NCBI GenBank assembly: GCA_033549065.1
Contig: JAWSUE010000004.1
Coordinates: 62,001-126,000 of the forward strand
Direction: 5' to 3'
DNA length: 64,000 bases
Origin: Bacillota bacterium
GTDB taxonomy: Bacteria > Bacillota > Dethiobacteria > DTU022
The translations under genes were made by a program, and so were the position numbers. Below, piece by piece: positions 14,341-25,812 of this stretch. Under the pieces are notes generated by a model. It worked only from the letters and a program-made list of their open reading frames with translations, did no database searches and was not told where the DNA came from. Position 1 is the first letter of the stretch; the number at the start of each line of letters is the position of its first letter.

Positions 14341-14440
14341 ATTCAGGAATGAAAAGGCAAAACTGCTGAAAAGTGGCGACGCAAAACTACAGGGGCTAAG
14401 AGCATTTTTATGCTGATGCCAGCCAGCTGCCGGTTTGAAT
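14341..14440 (+). ncRNA. Cyclic di-GMP-I (GEMM-I) riboswitch
   Basis: The leader of the metalloprotease gene matches the c-di-GMP-I riboswitch. Key conserved pieces appear in order: GGCAAA, a short hairpin closed by a GAAA tetraloop, the invariant GACGCAAA, then GGGGCTAAG, a hairpin AGCAT-TTTT-ATGCT, and the tetraloop-receptor side GATGCCAGCCAG leading to TGCC. The outer P1 helix can form from ATTCA (14341-14345) and TGAAT (14436-14440). It begins close to the predicted transcription start. Binding of c-di-GMP should control the downstream terminator; whether the ligand switches expression on or off cannot be read with certainty. Confidence 0.88.
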
Positions 14441-14481
14441 AGCAATAAACCGGTCCCGTCTGGAAATTAGGCGGGTTTTTT
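14430..14481 (+). terminator. Riboswitch expression platform with intrinsic terminator
   Basis: Two hairpins follow the aptamer. The first pairs CCGGTTT (14430-14436) with AAACCGG (14447-14453); its left arm overlaps the 3' strand of aptamer helix P1, so the two structures compete. The second pairs CCCGTCT (14455-14461) with AGGCGGG (14469-14475) and is followed by six T (14476-14481), a standard intrinsic terminator lying before the metalloprotease start codon. Confidence 0.78.
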
Positions 14482-14523
14482 GGTCTTTTCTATGATGGTC
14501 TGATCCTCTCATGGAGGATGCAT

Positions 14524-17355
14524 ATGTTTAATAAGAATCAAAAAAAGCAATATTTACTTGCTGCTTTGCTGGCCATTTTAATTACATTTGGTCCGGCCGG
14601 GATGGCTCATGCTGTAATGGTCGAACTGAGTCTGGAAGAACTCTCAACTGAGGCTGACTCTGTAATATTGGGAACGGTTGAAGAAATATCGAGCCAGTGG
14701 AATGAGGATTATACCAGCATATACAGTACTGTAACTGTTATTGTGGAAGAATTAATAAGTGGCGTAACCACTGGTAATACTGTAAGTATAATTGTTCCCG
14801 GTGGAAATGTTGATGGAATTACCCAGTTTGTATCGGATAATCCAAATTTCAAACCGGGAGAAACAGCGGTTTTTTTCCTCAATGAACGCCCCGGACAAAT
14901 ACTACCGCGCAGGCAGATCCAGCCAAAGACATACGATGTTTTTGGAAGTTTCCAGGGTAAGTTTGAAGTAAAAGGCAATAAATCCAGGGGCATCCCGGTA
15001 GAAATATTAAAAGAAGAGATCAAAACGATAGCTGTCAAAGGGCATTCACAGCTAAATCTTGATCTGACTGAAGTAGAAACCGACTATGTAAATGGCTACG
15101 ATTATACCTATAGCGGTGTGCGCTGGCCGGGATCTTCACCGGTAGTTCCTTACAAAATAAATGCATCTACGAGTGATCGGAATCAACATATCCAGGCTGC
15201 CGCAGGCACCTGGAATAATGCCGGTGCAAACTTTACCTTCAGGTATGACGGAACACACTCACGCATTGGTTTAGCATCAAAAAATAATATAAACGAAATA
15301 CTCTGGGGCGATCTTAATACGGGCGCCCTGGCTACCGCTACAATCTGGTACGATCAGAATAAGCGGATATTGGAAACGGATATCGTGTTCAATACCAGGT
15401 ATAGTTGGTATACAAATGGCTATGCTTATTATGATGTCCAGACCGTTGCTCTCCACGAGCTTGGCCATTGGCTCTGCCTGGAGCATTCTTCAGTGGAAGG
15501 ATCAATTATGTACTACAGAATGACCGGCCTGCAGCGGTACCTGCATGAAGTTGATATTGCGGGCATACACCATATTTATGGAACTTCAGGTACGGTTATC
15601 GAAAACAATGACAATTTTGCCGACCGTTATCTGATCAACGGCTTGAGCGGGCAAACAACAGGTACGAATATCAATTCTACCAGTGAACCTGGAGAACCAA
15701 TCCACGCCAGGTCAGGAGGAGGCCGTTCCGTTTGGTGGGAATGGGTTGCCCCGCAGTCAGGTTTTGCAGAAATCACAACTTTTGGCAGCAACTATGATAC
15801 TGTACTGGCTGTATATACCGGCAATACTGTATCAAGTTTAACTGAAATTGCTTCAAATGATGATTATGGTGGAACCCGTCAGAGCAGGGTCGGCTTCAAT
15901 GCCAATAGTGGAAATAGCTACAAGATTGCTGTTGACGGATGGTTGGGCGCTACCGGGAATATCGTTTTGAACTGGCAGTTATCGCCTATTGACTGTGCCA
16001 TTTCTGTCCCCCCCCTTCCTTCAGGACCTGACAGCGGTTTTACAGAGACAACTTATATCTATAGCATAGAAACTGGTGCCTCCTGCTCAAACAGCCACCC
16101 TGTTGAATACCGATTTGACTGGGGAGACGACAGATATTCCGGTTGGAGCAGTTCGCTGAGTTCAGAAATAATATGGAGCGTTCCGGGCACCTATCAGGTC
16201 CGCTCACAAGCTCGCTGTGCAACTGAAACAACTAAGCTATCTTCATGGTCAGCTGGAAAGGAAGTCACGATTACAGTTGAACCTGTTGAGTACAGTTTGC
16301 TGGTTTCCATTGAAGGAGAAGGCATGACAGATCCCCTTCCCGGCACATATAGATATGAAGAAAATACCTTAGTAAATTTATCTGCAACAGCAGATCAAAA
16401 TTGGACCTTTGATAAATGGATTATCGATGACGAAGAAACTAGTGAATCGGCACTGCTTATCAATATGGATAGTGATATAACAGCAACTGCAGTATTCATA
16501 GAAAATCCTGATTCAGTCGGCCAAAACCCGGACAATCCCAATCCCGAAGAACCTGAAGGGCCCGAAGAATATGTACTGACAATACAAATAATCGGTCAGG
16601 GTATTACAGAACCTGCTGCCGGAACATATACTGTTGAAGAAGGCAGTGAAATTAGCCTCAATGCAATCGAAGTGGATAACTGGCATTTCCAGAAATGGGT
16701 TATTAATGATGTTGAAGATACAGCACTTTCTGTAACAATCGATATAGATGAAGATACAGATGTAACAGCTATTTTTAACGAAGATTTGCTCGATGAGCCG
16801 TTACCGAGCCCAACTCCCACGCCAGTTCCCAGCCCTGAGCCGACACCGCAATCACCATCTCAGCCAACAACGAATCCTCCAGTATCATATCCACCGACAT
16901 CCAATCCACCCGTCGTGTCTGCACCTGCACCTGCCAATTTATTTTCACTGACAGTTGTCGTTAAAGGGAATGGAACCACCAACCCTGCACCGGGATTATA
17001 TACATACAACCAGGATGACAAGCTAGAATTAACTGCTAAACCGGATGCAGGGTGGAGGTTTGACCGGTGGCAGATCGGTAACAGCACTATTAAAGATATT
17101 AAAGTAAGGGTAACTATCAATGAAAATAAAACTGCTATTGCATATTTCATGATGTTAGGAAAAGGAGACTTAACCGGTGATGGCAAGGTAACCGTAAATG
17201 ATGTTGCGCTGGTAGCCCGTTATGTAGTAGGCTTAGCAATCCTTGATGAAGCTCAGCAAATAAATGCCGATGTGAACGGCGACGGGCTTATTAATGTTCT
17301 TGATATAGCTTTACTTATGCGTTTTTCTCTTGGTTTGATTGATACTTTTCAATAG
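14524..17355 (+). CDS. Secreted matrixin-like metalloprotease with InlB-like repeats and dockerin
   Basis: 943 residues. A Sec signal peptide (about 1-30, ending AHA) is followed by an N-terminal domain of unknown type (about 35-175). The zinc protease core has HELGHWLCLEH at 311-321 and a Met-turn (SIMYYRM, Met329), as in M10-like metzincins. Next come a beta-sandwich domain (about 365-490), a PKD-like segment with Cys pairs (490-585), three InlB-type repeats (about 589-660, 682-755, 805-875) and a Pro-rich linker. A type-I dockerin with two calcium loops (DLTGDGKVTVND and DVNGDGLINVLD) ends the protein. The start ATG at 14524 is 6 nt after GGAGG; the ATG at 14518 touches the ribosome binding site. 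Oddity: Cys replaces the usual Gly in HExxHxxGxxH. Expression is probably set by c-di-GMP through the riboswitch. Confidence 0.87.
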   Translation: MFNKNQKKQYLLAALLAILITFGPAGMAHAVMVELSLEELSTEADSVILGTVEEISSQWNEDYTSIYSTVTVIVEELISGVTTGNTVSIIVPGGNVDGITQFVSDNPNFKPGETAVFFLNERPGQILPRRQIQPKTYDVFGSFQGKFEVKGNKSRGIPVEILKEEIKTIAVKGHSQLNLDLTEVETDYVNGYDYTYSGVRWPGSSPVVPYKINASTSDRNQHIQAAAGTWNNAGANFTFRYDGTHSRIGLASKNNINEILWGDLNTGALATATIWYDQNKRILETDIVFNTRYSWYTNGYAYYDVQTVALHELGHWLCLEHSSVEGSIMYYRMTGLQRYLHEVDIAGIHHIYGTSGTVIENNDNFADRYLINGLSGQTTGTNINSTSEPGEPIHARSGGGRSVWWEWVAPQSGFAEITTFGSNYDTVLAVYTGNTVSSLTEIASNDDYGGTRQSRVGFNANSGNSYKIAVDGWLGATGNIVLNWQLSPIDCAISVPPLPSGPDSGFTETTYIYSIETGASCSNSHPVEYRFDWGDDRYSGWSSSLSSEIIWSVPGTYQVRSQARCATETTKLSSWSAGKEVTITVEPVEYSLLVSIEGEGMTDPLPGTYRYEENTLVNLSATADQNWTFDKWIIDDEETSESALLINMDSDITATAVFIENPDSVGQNPDNPNPEEPEGPEEYVLTIQIIGQGITEPAAGTYTVEEGSEISLNAIEVDNWHFQKWVINDVEDTALSVTIDIDEDTDVTAIFNEDLLDEPLPSPTPTPVPSPEPTPQSPSQPTTNPPVSYPPTSNPPVVSAPAPANLFSLTVVVKGNGTTNPAPGLYTYNQDDKLELTAKPDAGWRFDRWQIGNSTIKDIKVRVTINENKTAIAYFMMLGKGDLTGDGKVTVNDVALVARYVVGLAILDEAQQINADVNGDGLINVLDIALLMRFSLGLIDTFQ

Positions 17356-20356: not shown

Positions 20357-20440
20357 ACTTAACCTCCCCGGGGTTTCTAACATAATTTATATCTTATATT
20401 TTGAAATATATCAAATATTTATTATATTTTGTTTATAATA

Positions 20441-20473
20441 AAAAACACCACTTAATCTTTTGAATTAGCGGTG
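20441..20473 (-). terminator. Intrinsic terminator after msrA
   Basis: On the minus strand CACCGCTAATTC pairs with GATTAAGTGGTG (one wobble, one bulge) and is followed by TTTTTTATT. It lies about 30 bp after the msrA stop codon and suits rho-independent termination. Confidence 0.75.
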
Positions 20474-20499: not shown

Positions 20500-21327
20500 T
20501 TACCTGGCGATTAGCATTAGAAGCTCTTTACCTTCTTCTGAGAGGCCGTAACTTTCGATTTCTTCACTTATCAAATCTTTATCACCATATCCACCAATAA
20601 TACCATTAAGACGGGCTGCTGTTGTCGAGTTTACGAAACTGCTGAAGTCCGGAAAAAGCGCCCTGATTTCTCTAATAAGTTCGGGCACTCCCTGAAGGTA
20701 ATATTTCTGGTGATAATCTTCGGCAAGGTAGAAGTTTGTAAGCGGTGCTACTTCTGTATTTACATCCCCGGTTGTTTCACTTTCTATCAGTGCCTTGCTT
20801 TCCAGAGCAATCCTTTCCTGTTCATCATTATGATAAAGAATCAACGACATATATTGTCTTGACCAGCAAGGAATTGTCGGGTCATGGTTTTCCCAGAATA
20901 TCTTGATTAAATCTTCGTAACTGACAACCGAAGGATCATAGTCAATCTGTATAGTTTCGGTATGGTCTCCCAGATTCTGATATGTTGGGTTCTCATAAAC
21001 TCCGCCTGCATAACCAACTCTCGTCCTGTATACACCCTTGATCTGCCCGAACTGGGCATCGGGGCCCCAAAATCACCCCAACCCAAAAGTTGCAGTTTCC
21101 AAATTTTCGGGGATTGTAAACTCAAGAGGGGGTATTGCATATTTATCAAAATCCCTATTTTGTTCCACTAAACCCACTTCCTCTCCTATTTCAGGTTCAG
21201 CCTTGGAATCAAGAACAGCTTGATTGTCATCAGCATACGAACATCCGGTAATTAAAAGTGACCATAAAACAACATTCACGATCAATATTAATAAACCCGG
21301 CTTTAAACCGTAGACAAACTTTTTCAT
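20500..21327 (-). CDS. msrA: Selenocysteine-containing methionine sulfoxide reductase A lipoprotein
   Basis: One reading frame of 276 codons interrupted only by TGA at 21073-21075 (codon 85), exactly where MsrA has its catalytic Cys: family motif G-C-F-W-G, here GLG-(TGA)-FWGPDAQFG. The rest is normal MsrA: GVYRTRVGYAGG, the NPTYQNLGDHTETIQI segment, SYEDLIKIFWENHDPT, and FYLAEDYHQKYY. The frame stays open for 191 codons after the TGA, so it reads as selenocysteine, not as a frameshift or decay. The N-terminus is a lipoprotein signal (LLITGC, Cys30), so it should repair oxidised Met in surface proteins. Cys154 (DPTIPCWSRQY) is a candidate resolving residue. The ribosome binding site is weak. 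The Sec machinery is not in this window. Confidence 0.9.
21030..21075 (-). other. Candidate bacterial SECIS element and Sec UGA codon
   Basis: Just 3' of the in-frame UGA the mRNA can fold a hairpin: TGCCC, loop AGTTC, GGGCA. Flanking GA/TC and CCC/GGG pairs extend it with small bulges. The loop G is 21 nt after the UGA, within the spacing known for bacterial SECIS elements recognised by SelB. The structure was drawn by eye. Confidence 0.7.
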
Positions 21328-23134: not shown

Positions 23135-23170
23135 ACTAAATATTTAAAATAATTGGCGTTGAGGCTGCAT

Positions 23171-25812
<2,642 letters not shown>

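Follow-up and report, generated by a model that had tools for sequence, protein, structure and literature searches.

A selenocysteine-containing MsrA of the Clostridium oremlandii type with a predicted lipoprotein anchor, and a candidate selenoprotein electron donor, in a Bacillota bacterium

The best-studied bacterial selenoprotein MsrA is that of Clostridium (Alkaliphilus) oremlandii (CoMsrA; PDB 4LWJ, 4U66 and 7C13). This enzyme, 209 amino acids long, lacks Cys altogether, and with the catalytic position at residue 16 there is no room for a signal peptide. A C-terminal helical domain is essential to its activity, and glutaredoxin, rather than thioredoxin, serves as the enzyme's reductant (PMC4333827). 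Its loop L2 moves in catalysis (PMC4479559). A selenocysteine (Sec)-containing glutaredoxin reduces Sec-MsrA in C. oremlandii, according to a study cited in a review (reference 85 of PMC13188914). Outside the cytoplasm, the tested Cys-based route of surface repair is the CcdA-Etrx-MsrAB2 system of Streptococcus pneumoniae. There, CcdA feeds an outward-facing MsrA via a membrane-anchored thioredoxin; this system relies on Cys for its redox residues, joins MsrA and MsrB in one protein, SpMsrAB2, and has separate, linked genes for thioredoxin and CcdA (PMC3914529). A DsbD/CcdA domain joined to a Sec domain occurs in TsoB, a rhodanese/DsbD fusion-like selenoprotein (NF045694), and in UxxC thiol:disulfide interchange selenoproteins (PMC13188914).

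We analyzed a 64-kb stretch of genomic DNA from a Bacillota bacterium (64,000 nucleotides, referred to here as the window). A first-pass annotation of the sequence had proposed a single open frame running through a TGA at the catalytic Cys position of an MsrA. Translation, the PMSR match and the alignment with CoMsrA all bore this out. The annotation named no strand; the gene is on the minus strand, starting with ATG at 21327 and with its stop codon ending at 20500 (Table 1). One in-frame TGA is the sole interruption, and 191 codons follow it, stop counted. Alignment with known Sec-MsrA, which the annotation had suggested as a check, was gap-free over residues 74 to 271 and placed Sec85 on the catalytic residue 16 of CoMsrA. 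When open reading frames of at least 90 amino acids were listed under translation table 11, the only piece of msrA retained was an internal 116-aa fragment (20500-20850). Ordinary gene callers would therefore miss the front of the gene, in keeping with the earlier prediction that they would split it. Among other TGA-interrupted genes in the window none was convincing, leaving msrA alone. A simple terminator scan gave no flag at the possible terminator downstream of the gene.

Table 1. Coordinates of msrA, its features and the candidate donor gene (window positions unless a contig is given)
Feature	Position	Strand	Basis
msrA (selenoprotein, 275 aa including Sec85)	20500..21327	-	Read with TGA as Sec
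Predicted signal peptide, residues 1-28 (MKK, hydrophobic core)	21244..21327	-	Heuristic scan; predicted helix 11-27
Predicted lipobox I-T-G-C29 (lipid-anchored Cys), residues 26-29	21241..21252	-	Heuristic scan; Lgt in genome
TGA (codon 85), read as Sec at the catalytic position of GLG-U-FWG	21073..21075	-	Alignment; same codon TGA in 79/83
bSECIS hairpin, 5 bp UGCCC/GGGCA, loop AGUUC, G at 21052	21044..21058	-	Conservation and folding
MsrA catalytic domain, residues 78-212	20692..21096	-	Pfam PMSR, AlphaFold, Foldseek
Cys154, loop next to active site (CoMsrA residue 85, beside loop L2)	20866..20868	-	Alignment
C-terminal helical domain shared with C. oremlandii MsrA, residues 213-275	20503..20691	-	Alignment, AlphaFold, Foldseek
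Possible transcription terminator 3' of msrA, hairpin then T run	20439..20473	-	Fold -11.6 kcal/mol
Sec-Trx-CcdA fusion	L130:904-2133, genome contig C5	+	TGA conserved in same-family relatives

The catalytic domain matched Pfam PMSR (PF01625) with an E value of 8.5e-43, and the product scored above the family cut-off of TIGR00401. An AlphaFold model (pLDDT 86 overall and at least 94 in every block from residue 71) displayed the MsrA fold followed by C-terminal helices. The best Foldseek matches to this model were all CoMsrA (TMt 0.89 over 200 columns, 50% identity). Sequence homology to CoMsrA was likewise strong (E 8e-62), the closest solved structures all being C. oremlandii MsrA. The catalytic Sec, the catalytic residues and the C-terminal helical domain are shared with CoMsrA (PMC4333827); E124, H206 and Y209, which correspond to CoMsrA E55, H137 and Y140, are invariant among relatives. 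Unlike CoMsrA, the window's MsrA has a lipobox, one additional Cys and a linker some 45 residues long. Enzymes of the 1-Cys type have no further Cys, whereas this protein has both Cys154 and the lipid Cys29, and it was therefore classed as a variant of the CoMsrA type. Judged by sequence, it belongs to the CoMsrA type of selenoprotein MsrA and has a predicted exported lipoprotein form. A search of its own genome with this MsrA returned no second copy, and the idea of a cytoplasmic paralogue was rejected.

We then compared 83 distinct sequences, the window included, that have the same domain make-up as msrA. The codon at the catalytic position was TGA in 79, TGC in two and TGT in two, and the TGA-bearing genes span at least nine phyla. 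The hairpin 3' of the TGA in msrA (UGCCC-AGUUC-GGGCA) has a loop G 21 nt after that codon. Published constraints for a bSECIS are a loop of 3 to 9 nt, a stem of 4 to 16 bp, a G in the first two loop positions, a spacing of 16 to 37 nt and a minimum free energy of at most -7.5 (PMC13188914). The msrA hairpin lies within the four published bSECIS constraints, with 5 bp, a 5-nt loop with G second, 19 nt of spacing and -8.2 kcal/mol. Its 21-nt core folded better than shuffled sequences (z -3.04), but the 41-nt stretch did not (z 0.28). For this reason we discarded folding energy alone as proof of a SECIS, and the case is built on conservation.

As a null model for the stem we used synonymous shuffling that preserved each protein and the codon usage of each gene, with 500 replicates. 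The 4-bp stem core was present in 73 of the 79 TGA relatives, compared with 8.2 expected, and 380 of 395 core pairs were formed, against a null of 260 +/- 7.5 (maximum 285 in 500), counts that are inflated by shared ancestry but for which the neighboring Gly codon and the Cys relatives serve as internal controls. The Gly codon within the stem is GGG in 78/79, whereas the preceding Gly codon is mixed (24/22/21/11). Three of the four Cys-coding relatives have lost the stem, as expected if it serves Sec. The fourth (L042 664, Syntrophobacterales) reads TGC and retains a SECIS-like stem, probably marking a recent change from Sec to Cys. Covariation was seen at the outermost core pair, with G-C and U-A alternatives, and at the loop-closing pair, which is G-C with the Arg codon CGG or A-U with the Gln codon CAG. 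These patterns indicate that the hairpin is selected at the RNA level. The bSECIS proposed in the first-pass annotation, with its loop G 21 nt past the TGA, thus agrees with both the conservation and the published constraints.

The genome search for selA, selB, selC and selD that had been suggested alongside found all four. The tRNA-Sec scored above its cut-off and was also called by ARAGORN, selB scored 384 bits (cut-off 242), and selA and selD were above their cut-offs at 592 and 381 bits. The selD gene itself carries one TGA.

Signal peptides and lipoboxes were judged with a simple home-made heuristic scan. The lipobox form claimed at the outset held up, with ITGC directly after a hydrophobic core and Lgt found in the genome (E 6.4e-50). 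Among the 83 sequences, the scan assigned a strict lipobox to 36, a relaxed one to 6 and another hydrophobic N-terminal segment to 22, leaving 19 with none, some of them cut at contig ends. About three quarters of the relatives thus carry a lipobox or another export segment by this heuristic. In a tree, the predicted exported forms are spread over at least nine phyla, and three Sec/Cys changes are needed. The earlier view that such enzymes are known but rare held in its first part, the Sec-MsrA kind having been described, and failed for the exported form, in view of this share of the subfamily. A limited literature search found no mention of an exported or lipoprotein Sec-MsrA, an absence that is no proof. 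The sole MsrB of the genome (L131:1447-2016, minus strand) is also a predicted lipoprotein (FLITGC); it has a catalytic Cys and no Sec, and its gene adjoins lgt. With the only MsrA predicted to be exported and the only MsrB a predicted lipoprotein, repair of both the S and R forms of methionine sulfoxide seems to lie outside the cytoplasm in this organism. In a Halanaerobiaceae sequence (L084 around 847), the C-terminal domain of an MsrB runs in frame into a Sec-MsrA, an apparent MsrB-MsrA(Sec) fusion.

Read through one TGA, the genome's only DsbD/CcdA match appears to be a selenoprotein of 409 amino acids. It consists of a membrane anchor, a thioredoxin domain (PF00085) with the motif W-U-P-A-C and a CcdA/DsbD_TM domain with two Cys. 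The TGA was conserved in 17/17 distinct homologous loci, all with GAG-CCC-GTG for the Glu-Pro-Val of the hairpin, which is also within bSECIS limits. In the window's family, this Sec-Trx-CcdA fusion was found in 11/11 genomes with Sec-MsrA versus 8/25 without (P = 1.5e-4, kinship ignored). Among tRNA-Sec-positive genomes, it was present in 10/10 with Sec-MsrA versus 7/15 without (P = 0.008, kinship again ignored). Only one of five Sec-MsrA genomes carried it in another family of the same order; the fusion is therefore no universal partner, and its pairing with Sec-MsrA is lineage-specific at best. The fusion gene and msrA are not linked in the genome. An outward-facing MsrA fed by CcdA via a membrane-anchored thioredoxin, as predicted here, resembles the S. 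pneumoniae system, with the differences that MsrA and thioredoxin carry Sec and that thioredoxin is fused to CcdA. Against the TsoB model NF045694, the protein scored 130 bits (cut-off 805), and its Sec domain is a thioredoxin, not a rhodanese, domain.

Other possible donors were also considered. The peroxiredoxin-family matches were set aside: two appear to be soluble, one is a Sec peroxiredoxin, and a signal peptide is visible in none. A peroxiredoxin-like protein with an in-frame TGA (L134:1423-1893, minus strand; FV-U-PFC) is probably another selenoprotein of this genome. In several relatives, one or two in-frame TGA codons occur in the gene of another, shorter thioredoxin-like protein (G061:C36:9474-9857 and similar). 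No redox partner was found among the conserved neighbors of msrA, where only an upstream membrane protein, presumably of the O-antigen-ligase type, recurs (10 close relatives). In the window, a Fur/PerR-like regulator gene followed by katG, coding for a catalase-peroxidase, lies 2 kb from msrA (23153-25812, plus strand). This fits an oxidative stress setting and is not a conserved context. Elsewhere in the window (14346-17355, plus strand), a c-di-GMP-I riboswitch precedes the gene for a secreted metalloprotease of the matrixin type that carries a dockerin and InlB-like repeats.

A stop codon does interrupt the msrA reading frame, and in a decaying gene or after a sequencing error it would be a true stop. 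Yet relatives in many phyla have TGA at this codon, the frame is otherwise open, the stem is kept at synonymous sites and the genome encodes the Sec machinery. We regard a true stop as vanishingly improbable; conservation of the TGA and the stem rules out a pseudogene or a sequencing error, and chance, decay or error can practically be dismissed as origins of the codon. The first-pass annotation had named a lack of sel genes, decayed homologues or a sequencing error as grounds for abandoning its reading, and none of the three holds. Reading TGA codon 85 as Sec is near certain from the gene sequence. The hydrophobic N-terminus could also stem from a mischosen start of a cytoplasmic enzyme, a reading with which the 19 sequences without an export segment would agree. 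We consider this very unlikely, as the reading frame continues through the MKK-hydrophobic-ITGC extension and the nearest relatives also have lipoboxes, followed by dissimilar linkers. From its N-terminal sequence, MsrA is very probably lipid anchored outside the cell membrane, and we hold with high confidence that it is a functional exported Sec-MsrA of the C. oremlandii type.

How the enzyme is regenerated allows less firm statements. We place the chance that the Sec-thioredoxin-CcdA passes electrons across the membrane to the lipid-anchored Sec-MsrA somewhat below even. Its U-P-A-C thioredoxin domain would be the likeliest donor here. An unrecognized exported thiol carrier, small thiols or a dimer at Sec as in CoMsrA might serve instead, which we judge conceivable but on balance improbable. 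CoMsrA forms dimers through the catalytic residue, with glutaredoxin as its reductant (PMC4479559), and Sec-MsrA genomes of other families mostly lack the fusion; however, both glutaredoxin-family matches of the genome are short (106 aa and a 79-aa open frame) and probably cytoplasmic, and the CcdA-type protein is single. The first-pass annotation had also raised a resolving role for Cys154, through which a Sec85-Cys154 selenenylsulfide would be reduced by thioredoxin (2-Cys type). Its place by the loop that is mobile in CoMsrA speaks for this role, as does the enrichment of sporadic Cys at residues 150 to 155 (7 among the 83 sequences, about 12-fold over equally variable columns; P = 7e-5, for a region picked after the data were seen). 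On the other hand, a Cys at position 154 was found in one of the 83 sequences, the window's own, and in 66 of the 83 the domain lacks any additional Cys. We consider the role of Cys154 doubtful; it would be compatible with the exported Sec-MsrA proposed here.

In the mechanism that we propose, SelB and tRNA-Sec would decode UGA codon 85 as Sec, guided by the hairpin just 3' of it. MsrA would then be secreted, lipidated on Cys29 and held facing outward, where exported proteins bearing S-methionine sulfoxide could be attacked by Sec85. The resulting selenenic acid would be resolved by an external thiol or selenol donor. Electrons may pass from cytoplasmic thioredoxin through CcdA and the Sec-thioredoxin to Sec-MsrA. 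The gene, its Sec codon, SECIS selection, the Sec machinery, the lipobox and the donor candidate were read at the sequence level, and from them we infer in vivo decoding, location, activity and the electron path. The CoMsrA kind of enzyme was known; its widespread exported lipoprotein form and the candidate selenium donor are new, and the electron path is a proposal. Tandem use of Sec has a precedent within the cell; a transmembrane version would be new as far as our literature search showed.

Together, these analyses suggest that most relatives of CoMsrA, the best-studied Sec-MsrA of bacteria, are exported, as predicted from their N-termini, and that they are common among uncultured anaerobes. 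Because ordinary callers split the gene, metagenome annotation probably often overlooks proteins of this kind. Sec-Trx-CcdA offers a testable candidate for regenerating an outward-facing selenoenzyme. If the relay is true, selenocysteine would serve both in the repair enzyme and in the donor that faces outward.
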